A stretch of DNA of 64,000 nucleotides. Source: Protaetiibacter intestinalis. GTDB lineage: Bacteria; Actinomycetota; Actinomycetes; Actinomycetales; Microbacteriaceae. Shown one piece after another: positions 50,739-63,620 of this stretch; position 1 is the first letter of the stretch, and every line of letters begins with the position of its first letter. Below the pieces are notes generated by a model. It was not told the origin of the DNA. It worked only from the letters and a program-made list of their open reading frames with translations, and did no database searches. The stretch lies in assembly GCF_003627075.1 (NCBI RefSeq), contig NZ_CP032630.1:1054001-1118000 (forward strand), written 5' to 3'. A program made the translations under genes and the position numbers.

Positions 50739-52022
50739 TCAGAGCAGGTCGTGCCTCACGACGATCGCGTCGCGGCCGGGGCCGACGCCGATCGCCGACA
50801 TGCGCGAGCCGGACATCTGCTCGAGGGCGAGCACGTAGTCCTGCGCGGCCTTCGGCAGCTCGGCGAAGCTGCGGACGCCGGTGATGTCCTCCGACCAGCC
50901 GGGGAGCTCCTCGTAGATGGGCTTCGCGTGGTGGAAGTCGGTCTGGCTCACGGGCACCTCGTCGACGCGCACACCGTCGACGTCGTAGGCGACGCAGACG
51001 GGGATGCGCTCGAGGCCGGTGAGCACGTCGAGCTTGGTGAGCACGAAGTCGGTGACGCCGTTGATGCGGGCCGCGTAGCGAGCGATGGGTGCGTCGTACC
51101 AGCCGGTGCGGCGCGGGCGGCCGGTGGTGGTGCCGAACTCGAAGCCGGCCGAGCGCAGGAACTCGCCCGACTCGTCGAACAGCTCGGTGGGGAACGGCCC
51201 CGAGCCGACGCGGGTCGTGTAGGCCTTCACGACGGCGATGACGCGGTCGAAGCGGTTGGGGGCGACGCCCGAGCCGGTGGCGGCGCCGCCGGAGGTGGCG
51301 TTCGAGGAGGTGACGAAGGGGTAGGTGCCGTGGTCGACGTCGAGCATGGTGGCCTGGCCGCCCTCGAAGAGCACCGTCTTGCCGGCGTCGAGGGCGCGGT
51401 TCAGCTCGAGCGCGGTGTCGACCACCATGGGCCGCAGCCGCTCGACGTACGACAGCAGGTCGTCGACGACCTCGGAGGCCTCGATGGCGCGGCGGTTGTA
51501 GACCTTCAGCAGCAGGTGGTTCTTCTGGTCGAGGGCGCCCTCCACCTTCTGCCGCAGGATGTTCTCGTCGAAGAGGTCCTGCATCCGGATGCCGACCCGG
51601 TTGATCTTGTCGGCGTATGCGGGGCCGATGCCGCGGCCGGTGGTGCCGATCTGACGCTTGCCGAGGAAGCGCTCGGTGACCTTGTCGAGGGTGCGGTGGT
51701 ACTGCGTGATGACGTGCGCGTTGGCCGAGATGAGCAGCCGCGACACGTCCACCCCGCGGGCGCCGAGCGCCTCCAGCTCGCTGAACAGCACCTCGATGTC
51801 GACGACGACGCCGTTGGCGATGACGGGGGTGACGCCGGGGCTCAGGATGCCGGAGGGCAGCAGGTGCAGGGCGTACTTCTGGTCGCCCACGACGACCGTG
51901 TGGCCGGCGTTGTTGCCGCCGTTGAACTTGACCACGTAGTCGACGCGGTCGCCGAGCAGGTCGGTCGCCTTGCCCTTGCCTTCATCGCCCCACTGGGCGC
52001 CGATGAGCACGATCGCGGGCAT
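50739..52022 (-). CDS. purA: Adenylosuccinate synthetase
   Basis: 427 residues. PurA joins IMP and aspartate with GTP on the way to AMP. Seen: [24 protein letters not shown] (catalytic Asp, P-loop-like GDEGKGK), NNAGHTVV with the catalytic His, [37 protein letters not shown] and [20 protein letters not shown]. Full length and well conserved. The GGGAGAAG site supports the ATG. It is divergent from the eccD gene. Confidence 0.97.
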
Positions 52023-52128
52023 AGCTCTTCTCCCTAGGTTCGACGGGGGATTACACCCCAGCCTATCGGAACGAACCCCGTGATCCTGGGCCTATCTCAC
52101 GTGGGGCCGCGTCACTAGGATGACCGAC

Positions 52129-53463
52129 ATGTCGACCCCCGCGGCAGTCACCTCGGTCATCCGGGTCTCCGTCGCGAGCGAGGGTCGGCGGCTGGATGTG
52201 GGCATCCCGAGCCAGGTGGCGATCATCGAGCTGCTGCCGGGGTTCGCCCGCTCGCTCGGGGTGCTCGACCCCTCGCTCACCCACGGCGGGTACGCCCTGC
52301 AGCGCACCGACGGCTCGGCCCTCGACCCCGCGAAGACGTGCGGCGAGCAGGGGGTGCGCGACGGCGACGTGCTGACGCTGCTGCGCGGCGTGCACCTCGT
52401 GCAGCCGAAGGTGTACGACGACGTCGTCGAGACGGTCATCGACGCCACCTCGAGCCAGAACCATCCGTGGACCCCCCGCGACCACGCGCGCACCGCGCTC
52501 GCGGTGAGCCTGTGCCTCGTCGCGCTCGCGGCGCTCGTGCTGGTGCTGTCGGGGCCGGGCGCGCTCGGCTGGATGATCGCCGCCGGTTCGGCGGTGGTGC
52601 TCACGGTGACGGGCATCGTGCTGGGCAGGCTCGGGCAGCCGGACGCGGCGGCCGGGATCGGCCTCGCGGCGGCCGCGCTCGCCGGGGTCGCCGGGTTCCT
52701 CTACGGGCTGGGGCTCACGGAGGAGCTGTGGAGCTGGCCGCTCATGTTCGCCGGCATCGCCGCGGTCGTGGTCGGCATGGCGTCGTTCGCGCTCTCGCTG
52801 CCGCGCGATCCGCACCTCGTGCCGATCGTCGCCGGCGTCGCCGTCGCGATCCCGGCGGTCTTCGTCGCCACGATGGGGGCGGATGCGCTGCTCCCGGTGG
52901 TCGTGCTCGTCGCGGTCGCGGGGTCGTGCGCGGGCCTCATCCCGTGGCTCGCGCTCAGCACGGTGCGCATCAAGGTCATCTCGCCGCAGAGCGATCAGGA
53001 GATCTTCGCGACGCCGGCGCCCATCGACAGCGCCGCGATCGCCGCGCAGGTGGGTTCGGGTCGGCGGATCGCGGTGGCGATCCGGATCGGGCTCGCGCTC
53101 GCGGTGGTGCTGGCGACGCCGCTCGTGGCGGCATCCGGCACCTGGGGTGCGGCGCTCATGGCGGCCGCGTTCGCGGCGATGATGTTCCCCTCGCGGCAGA
53201 CCTACGCCCGTGTCGGGGTGTTCGTCATCATGGCGATCGGCGTGGTGGGGCTCGTGCTGACCGGCATCACGGTGGCCGTCTCGCAGCCGGAACTGCACGC
53301 CGCCCTGCTCGTGATCCTGTTCGCGGCGACGGCGGTGATCGTGGCGCTCACGCTGCTCGCCCCGCGCGCGCGACCCGCGGTCACCCGGATCGCGGACATC
53401 GCCGAGGTGCTCGTGGTCGCCTCCCTCCTGCCGCTCGGCGTCATCACCGCCGGACTGAACTGA
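52129..53463 (+). CDS. eccD: Type VII secretion integral membrane protein EccD
   Basis: 444 residues. The N-terminal ubiquitin/YukD-like domain (SVIRVSVASEGRRLDVGIPSQVAIIELLPGFARSLG ... GVRDGDVLTLL, residues 7-90) is followed by 11 membrane helices from about residue 120. This is the EccD architecture; the membrane part lines the vestibule of the type VII secretion complex. The ATG at 52129 has TAGGAT seven bases upstream and no ribosome-binding site, so it is read as leaderless. The EccB-MycP fusion gene follows ten bases after the stop. Confidence 0.9.
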   Translation: MSTPAAVTSVIRVSVASEGRRLDVGIPSQVAIIELLPGFARSLGVLDPSLTHGGYALQRTDGSALDPAKTCGEQGVRDGDVLTLLRGVHLVQPKVYDDVVETVIDATSSQNHPWTPRDHARTALAVSLCLVALAALVLVLSGPGALGWMIAAGSAVVLTVTGIVLGRLGQPDAAAGIGLAAAALAGVAGFLYGLGLTEELWSWPLMFAGIAAVVVGMASFALSLPRDPHLVPIVAGVAVAIPAVFVATMGADALLPVVVLVAVAGSCAGLIPWLALSTVRIKVISPQSDQEIFATPAPIDSAAIAAQVGSGRRIAVAIRIGLALAVVLATPLVAASGTWGAALMAAAFAAMMFPSRQTYARVGVFVIMAIGVVGLVLTGITVAVSQPELHAALLVILFAATAVIVALTLLAPRARPAVTRIADIAEVLVVASLLPLGVITAGLN

Positions 53464-53473
53464 CCCGCCGCCG

Positions 53474-56062
53474 ATGGCCACCAAGAAGGATCTTCAGGAG
53501 GCCGTCGGCTTCAGTCGGCGTCGCCTGCTGACCGCCTTCACGAGCGGCGCCCCCGGCGGCAAGGAGCTCGAGCCCGCGAAGCCGCTGCGCGCCGTGATCG
53601 CCGGGATCGGCATCGCCGCGGCGGTCGTCGTGGCGGGCCTGTTCTACGGCTTCCTGCGGCCGGGGCTGCCGGAGGGCTGGCAGCAGAACTCGCTCATCGT
53701 GTTGAAGGACACGGGCGGCCGCTTCGTCGCCGTCGACGGCACCCTCTACCCGGTCATCAACACGGCGAGCGCGCGGCTGCTCATCGAGTCGTCGGAGTTC
53801 CGGCTCGTGATGACCGACCAGGCGACCATCTCGGGCGTACCGGTGGGTCCGACGATCGGCATCGTGGGCGCCCCCGACGACCTGCCCGCGGTGGGTTCGC
53901 TGCAGGGCGACGGCTGGACCGCGTGCCCGGCCCCCGACGGCACGGCGGTGGGCATCGCCGCGAGCCCGCTCGCCGAGGCGAGCGACGGCGGTGTCGTCGT
54001 CGAGCTGAACGACGAGGACTACGTGGTCGCGGGCGACCGCCGCTTCGCCGTGCCGGCGTCGGCGCGGGATGCGGTGCTGCGCGCGGTGGGGCTCGACGAG
54101 GCGCGCCCACTGCCGGTCGACGGCCGGTGGCTCAACCTCTTCGCGCCGGGTGACGAGCTCGCGCCGCTCGACGTGCCGGATGCGGGGGATGAGGTGCCGG
54201 GCACCTCGCTCATCGTGGGCCAGGTGGTGCACCCCGACGGCACCCCCGACGACCGGCGGTTCCTGGTGACCTCGGACGGCCGGCTCGCCCCGCTCGGCGA
54301 ACTCGCGTACCAGCTCTACCTGCTGGGCGCGGGGGCCGTGCTCGGCCCCGCCGTCTCGGTCTCCCCCGCCCAGCTCGCGGCGCTCCCGACGGCGGATGCG
54401 CCGGCGGGCGGGGACTGGCCGTCCGGCACGCTCGCCCCCCTCGAGGGCACCGCCTGCGCGCTCCTGCAGCACGACGACACGGGCGACCCCACGACGGTGC
54501 TGGCCGCCGCGGCGGCGGCCCCCGCGGTCGCGCTCGACGCCGACGGGGTGCGCCTGCAGCCCTCGACCGGCGCGCTCGTGCGCGGGGGCGGGGTCGGCTC
54601 CGACAGCCAGGGCGTCGTCACGATCGTCGACGCCACCGGCACGGCGTTCCCCGTCCCGGGTGCCGACGAGGAGGTGCTGGCGCGGCTCGGCTACCTGCCC
54701 GAGCACGTGTCGCGCGTCACCGACCGCTGGCTGCAGTTCCTGCCGTCGGGCCCCGAGCTCACGGTCGCCGCGGCGGGCTCCACCCCCGACACCGGCGAGC
54801 GCGTCGTCGAGCCGCCGTCCGACGAGCCCACCCCCTCGGCCCTCGCCGTCGACGGCCGCACCGCGGCCGCCGACGAGTGCACGCCGGGGGTCGTCGCCTT
54901 CCAGGCCGGCACGCCGACCCCGCTCACCCAGCTGCAGTTGTCGGCGGCGTCGGCGCTCGCGACCGGGCAGGGGGTGCTCGTGGCGGTCGTCGACTCGGGC
55001 ATCGACGCCGCGAACCCGCAGCTCGCGGGTGCGGTGGTGGGCGGAGTGGACCTCGTGGGCGACGGGACCGACCCGCACGGCTTCACCGACGTCAAGGGGC
55101 ACGGCACGGCGGTCGCGGGCATCATCGCCGCGCGCCCCGTGGAGGGCTCGGGCATCGTCGGGGTGGCGCCACAGGCCGAGCTGCTCTCGGTGCGGGTGTT
55201 CCGCGGCGACGACGACCGCTCGGTCGAGGCCGGCTTCGGCCCCGACACCGCGAAGGTGACGGCCGGCATCCGCTGGGCGGTCGCCCACGGCGCCGACGTC
55301 ATCAACCTCTCGCTCAGCCAGCCCGTCGACGACCCGGAGCTCGCGGCCGCCGTGCGCGAGGCGGTCGCCGCGGGGGTCGTGCTCGTCGCGAGCGGGGGCA
55401 ACCGCGACACCGCGGTCGTCACGACCGACGGTCTGCGCTATCCGGCCGCCTACCCGGATGTGCTGGGGGTCGCGGCCGCGGGACTCGACGGGCGCGTCAC
55501 CGAGACGTCGATCCACGGTCCGCAGGTCGACGTCTCGGCGCCCGGCGCCGACGTCTGGAGCACGGCCCCCGGCGCGGGCAACTGCCAGTTCACGAACGCG
55601 ACGGATCCCTCCTCGAGCTACGCGACCGGCTACGCGACCGGCGCGGTCGCCCTGCTGCGCGAGCGCTTCCCCGAGGAGACCCCCGCGCAGCTCGAGTACC
55701 GGCTCATGGTGAGCGCCGCGCGCGCCGACCCCGACACCCGCGACGACCGCGACGGCTGGGGCTTCATCCAGCCGTTCGAGGCGCTCACGGTGCTGCCCGA
55801 TGCCGGTCTGCGCGGCCCCGCCGCCCCCGAGGGCGTGGGGGCGCCCGCCCTCACCCCGGCGGGGGTCGAACTCGCGCCGGATGCGGGCGTGCCGCCCATC
55901 CGGATCACCCGCGAGCTGGCGATCGGCATCGCGAGCCTCAGCCTCGTGGTCGTGGGGGCGATCGTCGTGATCGCGCTCGGACGCCGACGCCCCGAACCGC
56001 AGCCGCCCCCGCGCACGGGTGGCGGGCTGTTCCCGTCGACCACGCCCGACCCGGAGGCGTGA
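53474..56062 (+). CDS. EccB-MycP fusion: type VII secretion core protein joined to mycosin protease
   Basis: 862 residues in one uninterrupted frame. Residues 1-440 are EccB: a short cytoplasmic start, one membrane helix (AVIAGIGIAAAVVVAGLFYGFL, about 40-60) and the marker IVLKDTGGRFVAVDGTLYPVINTASARLL. A Pro/Glu/Ser linker (about 435-475) leads into a subtilisin domain of mycosin type: PLTQLQLSAASALATGQGVLVAVVDSGID with Asp507, DVKGHGTAVAGIIAA with His543, ASGGN for the oxyanion Asn, and PSSSYATGYATGA with Ser715. The usual GTS before the nucleophile reads SSS. A C-terminal membrane helix (LAIGIASLSLVVVGAIVVIAL) and short basic tail end the protein. EccB and MycP are normally separate and touch in the periplasmic-side cap of the secretion complex. 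The mycosin signal peptide is absent and replaced by the EccB anchor. Confidence 0.9.
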   Translation: MATKKDLQEAVGFSRRRLLTAFTSGAPGGKELEPAKPLRAVIAGIGIAAAVVVAGLFYGFLRPGLPEGWQQNSLIVLKDTGGRFVAVDGTLYPVINTASARLLIESSEFRLVMTDQATISGVPVGPTIGIVGAPDDLPAVGSLQGDGWTACPAPDGTAVGIAASPLAEASDGGVVVELNDEDYVVAGDRRFAVPASARDAVLRAVGLDEARPLPVDGRWLNLFAPGDELAPLDVPDAGDEVPGTSLIVGQVVHPDGTPDDRRFLVTSDGRLAPLGELAYQLYLLGAGAVLGPAVSVSPAQLAALPTADAPAGGDWPSGTLAPLEGTACALLQHDDTGDPTTVLAAAAAAPAVALDADGVRLQPSTGALVRGGGVGSDSQGVVTIVDATGTAFPVPGADEEVLARLGYLPEHVSRVTDRWLQFLPSGPELTVAAAGSTPDTGERVVEPPSDEPTPSALAVDGRTAAADECTPGVVAFQAGTPTPLTQLQLSAASALATGQGVLVAVVDSGIDAANPQLAGAVVGGVDLVGDGTDPHGFTDVKGHGTAVAGIIAARPVEGSGIVGVAPQAELLSVRVFRGDDDRSVEAGFGPDTAKVTAGIRWAVAHGADVINLSLSQPVDDPELAAAVREAVAAGVVLVASGGNRDTAVVTTDGLRYPAAYPDVLGVAAAGLDGRVTETSIHGPQVDVSAPGADVWSTAPGAGNCQFTNATDPSSSYATGYATGAVALLRERFPEETPAQLEYRLMVSAARADPDTRDDRDGWGFIQPFEALTVLPDAGLRGPAAPEGVGAPALTPAGVELAPDAGVPPIRITRELAIGIASLSLVVVGAIVVIALGRRRPEPQPPPRTGGGLFPSTTPDPEA

Positions 56063-56068
56063 CCCGCG

Positions 56069-56664
56069 TCAGCGGGTGGTCACGAGGAAGACGATGACCG
56101 CGGCGAGGCCGCCGATCGACACGACGCACGCCCCCGCGAGCACGACGACCGCGGTGACCGCCGCCCGCCGCGAGCTGCGCAGCACCGAGGGCATGGACGG
56201 CGCGCGGAAGCGGGTGGCCTCCGCCGCGGCGGCGATCGGCTGGGCGGTGGCCTGTGCCGCGGCGACCTCGGCGGGGGCGTAGCTCAGCACGGCGCCGGCA
56301 CCCACCGCGCGGGTCGCGGTGCGGCCGAAGCCGGCGGGGACGGGCGCGGGACGCAGCTCGCCGCGGCGGCGCGCCCCGGCCGGGCGGGCGAGCTTGGGGC
56401 CGACGGGGCTCAGCGAGCCCGAGTCGTGCCCGAGGGAGGTCTCGGCGGGTGCCGGCTGCAGCGGGGCGCCCTCCGAGTCGACGGGCACCGCGACGGTGTG
56501 CTCGCCCGTCGTCGAGCCGGAGCGCTCCACGGCGACCGTCGCGTCGTCCTCCCGCTCGACGACCACGGTGTGGTCCTCCGCCTCCGGCTCCTCGTCCGCG
56601 GGCGGCGCGGGCACGGCGCGGTCGACGACGACGGTCTCGTCGTCCTCGTCCCGCTCCGGTGTGC

Positions 56665-56668
<4 letters not shown>
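56069..56668 (-). CDS. Membrane-anchored protein with repeated TVVV motifs
   Basis: 199 residues, acidic N-terminal half without predicted fold, then a linker and one C-terminal membrane helix (AAVTAVVVLAGACVVSIGGLAAVIVFLV). The first half has [26 protein letters not shown] and EHTVAVPV, all with an acidic residue close before the Thr. Similar motifs occur in the FHA protein of the same operon, and the gene overlaps the PP2C gene (ATGA), so it is a candidate phospho-Thr substrate or docking protein. I do not recognise a named family. Confidence 0.75.
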
Positions 56669-62654
<5,986 letters not shown>

Positions 62655-62658
<4 letters not shown>

Positions 62659-63620
62659 GCCGTGCCGTTCTCCTTGGGTGCGGGCACGTCGACGAGGATC
62701 TTGCCGACGACCTGCTCGGCGGTGACCCCGTCGAACTCCGCCTCCGGGTCGAGGATGATGCGGTGCGCGAGCGCCGGGATGGCGACGCGGGCCACGTCGT
62801 CCGGCAGCAGGTAGGTGCGCCCCCGGCTGACCGCCCAGGTGAGCGCGAGCTTGGTGAACGACAGCGCGCCGCGCACGCTCACCCCGAGCCGCACCTCGGA
62901 GGCGAGGCGGGTCTGGTTGACGATCCGCATGAGGTAGTCGATGACGAGCGGGTTGGCGTAGACGCCGCGCGCGAGATCCGTCATCGTGACGATCGTCTCG
63001 AGCTCGACGATGCCCTGCACCGCGGTCTTGCCCGCCGCGACGCCCGTGAGGATGCGGGTCATGGCCGCGTCGTCGGGGTAGCCGACCGAGGTCTTGATCA
63101 TGAAGCGGTCGAGCTGCGCCTCCGGCAGCCGGTAGGTGCCCGCCTGCTCGACGGGGTTCTGGGTCGCGATCACGAGGAACGGGGTGCCCACCGGGCGCGT
63201 CACGCCGTCGGTCGTGACGTTGCCCTCCTCCATGACCTCGAGCAGCGCCGACTGGGTCTTGGGGCTCGCGCGGTTGATCTCGTCGGCGAGCACGACGTTG
63301 GCGAACACGGGCCCCGAGTGGAACTCGAACACACCCTTCTTCTGGTCGAAGACGGTGATGCCGGTGACGTCACCCGGCAGCAGGTCGGGGGTGAACTGGA
63401 TGCGGCTCGAGGTGCCCTTGATCGACTGGGCGAGCGCCCGCGCGAGCGCCGTCTTGCCCGTGCCCGGCACATCCTCGAGCAGCACGTGCCCCTCGCTGAT
63501 CGCCGTCGCGAGCACGAGCTCGATGACGTTGCGCTTGCCGAGGATCGCCTGCTCGACGTTGGCCGCGATGAGGCCGAAGGCCTCGGTGAACCAGTCGGCC
63601 TGCTGCTGGGTGATGGTCAT
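62655..63620 (-). CDS. MoxR-type AAA+ ATPase
   Basis: 321 residues. Walker A DVPGTGKTALARALA (about 49-63), RIQFTPDLLPGDVTG, Walker B VVLADEINRASPKTQSALLEVMEEG, sensor 1 IATQNPVEQAGTYRLPEAQLDRF, and a C-terminal lid. MoxR proteins act as chaperones for metal or complex insertion, together with DUF58 proteins. A GAAAGGA ribosome-binding site supports the ATG. It follows the gene for a large exported protein by 15 bases. Confidence 0.95.

Follow-up and report, generated by a model that had tools for sequence, protein, structure and literature searches.

A recurrent fusion of EccB and a mycosin-type protease among the type VII secretion genes of Protaetiibacter intestinalis

The DNA analyzed here, a stretch of 64,000 nucleotides from Protaetiibacter intestinalis that we call the window, contains one gene that encodes both EccB and a mycosin-type (MycP) subtilisin protease of a type VII secretion system (T7SS) in a single reading frame. 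The joining of these two established T7SS components is genuine and recurrent, and our reading of the surveyed loci found the one-frame form in 12 genomes of four families, the window's genome included. We consider it probable that the product of this natural fusion remains uncut and fills two roles, EccB and cap protease, in the T7SSa (ESX-4-like) system of this genome. That neighboring genes for interacting proteins fuse is well known; what stands out here is that a 1:1 chain conflicts with the known 6:3 cap and that the mycosin signal peptide has been lost repeatedly. The features of the gene and its neighbors, in window coordinates, are as follows.

52120..53463, plus strand: eccD; PF08817, PF19053 and TIGR03920 over cut-off; ends 10 bases before the fusion start
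53474..56062, plus strand: EccB-mycosin fusion gene; ATG at 53474, TGA ending at 56062, 862 codons plus stop
53480..54790, plus strand: EccB region, residues 3-439, including the N-terminal membrane anchor (PF05108, TIGR03919, hydropathy, PDB profile matches)
54791..54931, plus strand: linker, residues 440-486 (47 residues), polar, rich in Pro/Ala/Thr/Glu, containing Cys469
54932..55978, plus strand: mycosin-type region, residues 487-835, with the S8 peptidase core at 498-763 (TIGR03921, below cut-off; PF00082)
54992..54994, plus strand: codon of catalytic Asp507 (conserved alignment column)
55100..55102, plus strand: codon of catalytic His543 (conserved alignment column)
55616..55618, plus strand: codon of catalytic Ser715, motif SSS (conserved alignment column)
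55904..55987, plus strand: C-terminal membrane helix, residues ~811-838 (hydropathy up to 2.81)
57459..63620, minus strand: opposite-strand neighbors, namely DUF5684-FHA, transglutaminase, DUF58 and MoxR frames (start positions provisional)

The preliminary description of this DNA had claimed one unbroken frame with EccB followed by a complete subtilisin domain, and Pfam and NCBIfam indeed place both halves within the 862 codons. Residues 3-439 match EccB (PF05108, E 7e-57, 193.6 bits against a cut-off of 27) and the protein passes the NCBIfam EccB model TIGR03919 (179.5 bits, cut-off 154); residues 498-763 match Peptidase_S8 (PF00082, E 1e-43). The profile search that had been proposed as a check therefore assigns the first half of the protein to EccB and the second to a mycosin-type protease. 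Neither a stop nor a frameshift lies between the halves, and genomes of three other families have the same architecture. Hydropathy gives membrane helices at residues ~35-65 and ~811-838 and none in the linker, in agreement with the C-terminal helix described earlier, and a marginal window at 623, inside the protease core, that is barely over the 1.6 threshold. GC3 is 0.96 in the EccB part, 1.00 in the linker, 0.96 over residues 487-790 and 0.92 over residues 791-862, and these high values across the junction indicate that the coding frame continues through it. The opposite strand of 53474-56062 is likewise open in one frame over the whole fusion, and its translation matches relatives in tblastn; the longest listed reverse-strand ORF (53444-55516, minus strand) matched no Pfam family. 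The open opposite strand is probably an effect of the high GC3, and a trap for gene callers. A promoter and terminator scan of 51900-57500 found none.

A profile built from the window's EccB half and 14 split relatives matched 7 distinct PDB sequences, six of them named EccB and one named "conserved membrane protein", and by analogy with these solved chains the EccB core of the fusion would be extracytoplasmic. The protease half is clearly a subtilase. On residues 487-835 the mycosin model TIGR03921 scores 245 bits, below its curated cut-off of 278.75, and is still the top NCBIfam family for that half. A PDB search with the window's protease half as single sequence gave 168 matches, the best 60 of which are all subtilisins or further S8 proteases, none bearing the name mycosin. 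A 15-sequence mycosin profile (the window and 14 split relatives) matched 204 PDB sequences, with an intracellular subtilisin first, mycosin-1 from rank 3 and mycosin-5 of 7NP7 within the best 60 of the 204. Three things speak for a mycosin: its top rank among the NCBIfam families, the helix at the C-terminus, and homologs encoded beside eccB in relatives. With its score below the cut-off, we file the protease half as mycosin-like and predict that it works like a mycosin.

The catalytic residues named in the preliminary description, Asp507, His543 and Ser715, fall in conserved columns of the alignment. Asp, His and Ser are kept in all eight fusions of the tree alignment and the oxyanion Asn643 in seven of the eight; the 61 split mycosins keep Asp in 61, His in 59, Ser in 59 and Asn in 58. 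A change from GTS to SSS at the nucleophile had also been pointed out. The letters were read correctly, but they are no peculiarity of this protein, since the three residues ending in the catalytic serine are SSS in 4/8 fusions and in 29/61 split mycosins of the clade; the motif is thus ruled out as a mark of altered catalysis or of fusion. Two cysteines, Cys469 of the linker and Cys704, are unchanged across the eight aligned fusions.

Our surveys of fused and split forms used EccB models, and the genus, family, order and class samples overlap. Within its own genus the window's genome alone has an EccB match (1/9), and the lack of a match in the other eight implies that the T7SS is accessory in the genus. 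The match rate was 30/398 genomes in the family (27 over cut-off), 69/396 in the order survey and at least 122/345 in the class survey. The three family matches below cut-off were judged by eye not to be EccB. Other weak matches rejected by eye from the translation were two long, wall-associated-looking proteins (G349, G334) and another membrane protein (G152), and tblastn found no EccB in G535 or G626. The preliminary description had suggested a survey of this family, and both forms occur in it: among the 27 loci read (L002-L028, three second EccB places being left out of the count), three carry the fusion, 19 have the two genes in separate frames, and in five the 1.5 kb flank holds no match to mycosin.

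Outside the family, the long-framed places of the order survey include fusions in G465, G457, G718, G656 and G737, and one in G602 that is cut by the contig end; short-framed places without a locus were judged on frame length only. Long open EccB frames with no mycosin match in them, and hence unfused, were found in G565, G500 and G597 of the order survey and in G1076, G1014, G861, G1016, G948 and G849 of the class survey. In the family f10, 8/47 genomes match, of which five are fused (G457, G718, G656, G1084, G1094), one is broken (G1083) and two have no EccB in tblastn, so that all five intact EccB genes found there are fused. The broken copy (L237), from a genome that is 50% complete, has an open and fused junction; its frame is interrupted within the EccB core and again close to the nucleophile, and these breaks may be sequencing errors. 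Family f20 has matches in 3/18 genomes, two fused (one of them cut off) and one too short to call. Family f3 has matches in 54/213; the 35 genomes read comprise two fused (G737, which is Schaalia georgiae, and G1219) and 33 unfused, and the other 19 were judged on frame length only. Both forms also coexist in the genus g21, where EccB is present in 4/11 genomes, two fused and two split. Among named genomes within the best 80 of 396 relatives, EccB was found in 32/80 and was fused in one, Schaalia georgiae. The closest within the same best 80 of 396 are both split: a Rhodoglobus MAG, with 59% identity in the EccB half and 60% in the mycosin half, and MAG SZAS-4, with 55% and 60%. A Rhodoglobus as nearest named relative agrees with the Microbacteriaceae placement suggested in the preliminary description. 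One further locus (L235, G1217) has eccB and mycP in the same reading frame with a single stop codon between them, an arrangement near to fusion.

A tree of 69 rows (61 split, 8 fused) requires at least four changes between the fused and split states, and its starred branches alone force four. This tree leaves out G1084, G1094, G1219, G602, G1083, duplicate loci and the apparently frameshifted pairs L028, L092 and L132, and two of its fused rows (L061, L065) sit on long branches and are of unsure placement. In a careful 26-row tree the window groups with three f10 fusions at a weak support of 84/81, which is not starred. One shared origin of the window's fusion and the f10 fusions is likely.

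The fusions have lost the mycosin signal peptide as well as the stop codon between the genes. In 49/61 split pairs a start codon of mycP shares 4 bases with the end of eccB, so that the frames of the two genes differ. Ahead of the protease domain the split mycosins have a hydrophobic signal peptide, with a best 14-residue hydropathy of at least 1.69 in 59/61, the exceptions being L089 (1.44) and L050 (masked with N). Over the linker, the highest 14-residue value is 0.15-1.14 in all 11 fusions measured (the twelfth, the cut-off G602, lies outside the measurement), so the signal peptide is absent; the window's linker reaches 0.75, and its mycosin has no signal peptide of its own. Loss of both stop and signal peptide in the 11 measured fusions would follow if export of the protease now relied on the EccB anchor. 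An internal restart yielding a separate mycosin was rejected for the window, where residues 435 to ~481 include no ATG, GTG or TTG codon in frame; the nearest in-frame start codons are GTG401, GTG412 and TTG489, and the product of TTG489 would have no signal peptide. The linkers of the other 10 fusions examined do contain in-frame start codons, and an internal restart is possible there.

We assign the fusion to a T7SSa (ESX-4-like) system because eccD lies 10 bases upstream and a full-length EccC and a WXG100 pair are present in the same genome, which thereby encodes EccC, EccD, EccB and WXG100 proteins. The genome is a single 3.1 Mb contig, 99.99% complete, and the fusion is its only EccB match. 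The EccC (1,315 aa, genome positions 1131886-1135833) is over the cut-off of both TIGR03924 and TIGR03925, the WXG100 pair lies ~15 kb downstream of the fusion, and the T7SSa genes are spread over ~30 kb from eccD to EccC. A second EccD-like frame in the genome is below the family cut-off. Some of the DUF5684-FHA, transglutaminase, DUF58 and MoxR neighbors have matches close to eccB-mycP in relatives too, several of them split and two fused. A 1,975-aa protein with bacterial Ig repeats (L163:3637-9564, minus strand) is encoded beside a Ser/Thr kinase frame, after the fusion and before the WXG100 pair; in two relatives (L071, L072) a protein with 28% identity to it is encoded close to a split eccB-mycP. 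Elsewhere, at ~2.076-2.081 Mb (L192), there is a second FtsK/EssC-type ATPase frame of ~1,430 aa with two FtsK_SpoIIIE matches, and next comes a frame of 201 aa that ends in a WXG100 domain; together these are possibly a second T7SS-like system. The frame L192:6146-10471 gave no match when scanned and is probably not the ATPase frame. At ~1.96 Mb, away from the EccB/EccC locus, L193:4665-6317 encodes a free-standing mycosin-like S8 protease (P0003) that scores 232.7 bits on the mycosin model, below cut-off, and has a signal peptide and a C-terminal helix by eye. In a plasmid search, 308 records matched part of the query and none covered 80% of it.

From the sequence, the following topology, export route and assembly can be proposed for a whole chain with one mycosin domain per EccB. 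The EccB membrane anchor would act as a signal-anchor for the entire chain, so that the N-terminus would be cytoplasmic, the EccB core, linker and subtilisin domain would be outside, and the second helix would return to the membrane. EccB dimers would form an extracytoplasmic chamber, and the tethered protease domains would cap it, hold the complex together and process cargo. The part of PMC8131196 available to us gives the ESX-5 ratio EccB5:EccC5:EccD5:EccE5:MycP5 as 6:6:12:6:3 and describes a MycP loop that touches the EccB C-terminus in a complex held together by MycP. The fusion joins exactly these contacting neighbors, and its recurrence supports the view that EccB and mycosin work as one unit. 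Several points count against this reading. The ESX-5 architecture, with three MycP and six EccB, would need to change to accommodate a standing 1:1 fusion. The mycosin half scores under the NCBIfam cut-off, the best 60 PDB matches of its single-sequence search name no mycosin, and the profile search ranks mycosins behind an intracellular subtilisin. A free-standing mycosin-like protease is encoded elsewhere in the genome, and the system is accessory in the genus. The preliminary description held that a fusion would fix the stoichiometry of the two proteins. That claim was understated, since a 1:1 chain conflicts with the published six EccB to three MycP of ESX-5 and does not freeze a known ratio. 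A 1:1 supply could end in six domains at the cap, in three docked and three hanging on linkers, or in a cut linker and a restored 6:3. We suggest tentatively, as somewhat short of probable, that fused systems carry one protease domain per EccB, six per hexamer and not three, that the trimer-of-dimers cap is not the sole working architecture, and that the alternative has evolved at least four times.

A rather unlikely but serious alternative is that the chain is cut in its exposed linker, by the mycosin domain or another protease, to give separate EccB and MycP. Fusion would then serve only for co-export and equal supply, and spare mycosin domains would be lost as the usual 6:3 complex formed. 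Such cleavage fits the linkers in being polar and variable in length and sequence among the fusions, and in the pair G216-G167, where dS is saturated, the linker looks less conserved (dN/dS 0.201 against 0.107 for EccB and 0.059 for mycosin) and gaps occupy 17 of its alignment columns. The linker is, however, about as conserved as the domains in the two unsaturated pairs, with dN/dS for EccB, linker and mycosin of 0.115, 0.144 and 0.114 (G718-G656) and 0.209, 0.171 and 0.199 (G737-G1219). In these two close fused pairs purifying selection acts on the linker as well as on the two halves, the window's own fusion being in neither pair. We judge the standing fusion likelier than cleavage on weak grounds, mainly this selection on the linker in two pairs. 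It is improbable that the mycosin half is merely a structural clamp with its protease activity dispensable or lost. According to the available part of PMC5082899 the MycP1 protein is essential and its protease activity dispensable for secretion, and that of PMC5156307 reports that mycosins stabilize the complex, but the catalytic residues kept in all eight aligned fusions count against this reading. That the fusion is an artefact (a lost stop, a base error in the assembly or a decaying gene), as the broken frames of the related, half-complete G1083 might suggest, is scarcely credible for a nearly complete single-contig genome in which GC3 stays high through the junction and the signal peptide is gone along with the stop, which a single base error could not achieve, and when 11 other genomes share the architecture and related fusions are under purifying selection.

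Most structural work on T7SS has been done in mycobacteria, and the fusion is a natural experiment which suggests that beyond that group, too, EccB and mycosin function together as a unit. The published 6:3 cap also gets a non-mycobacterial test, as two proteins joined covalently at 1:1 have to be cleaved apart unless the cap that they form is a different one. The fusion may also be a handier start for structure work because, as stated in the available part of PMC8131196, MycP was absent from T7SS structures before ESX-5.

We found no description of a natural EccB-mycosin fusion in the open-access literature, subscription journals being largely outside the search, and the available portions of PMC11217815, PMC5082899, PMC11004387, PMC4791881 and PMC5156307 are silent on one; fused proteins of this sort may already stand, uncommented, in database annotations. 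The fusion resembles ESX-5, as presented in the accessible part of PMC8131196, in its EccB fold and N-terminal anchor and in its subtilisin domain and C-terminal membrane helix. There MycP caps a chamber built of EccB dimers and the two are separate proteins at 6:3, whereas here they form one 1:1 chain without a mycosin signal peptide. The split eccB-mycP neighbors in Actinomycetes, such as those of the Rhodoglobus MAG (JAODAQ010000002.1, L079), share with the window the eccD-eccB-mycP order and the catalytic residues and are similar to it in the EccB tail and the mycosin start; they differ in being two genes, nearly always in different frames, with a mycosin that has its own signal peptide. 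The ESX-4-type T7SSa, which in the portion of PMC4791881 available to us consists of EccC, EccD, EccB, MycP and two WXG proteins, is matched here in EccB, EccC, EccD, the mycosin-type domain and the WXG100 pair. In contrast to that system, EccB and mycosin are one protein in the window's genome, the genes extend over ~30 kb, and there is an extra, sub-threshold EccD-like frame.
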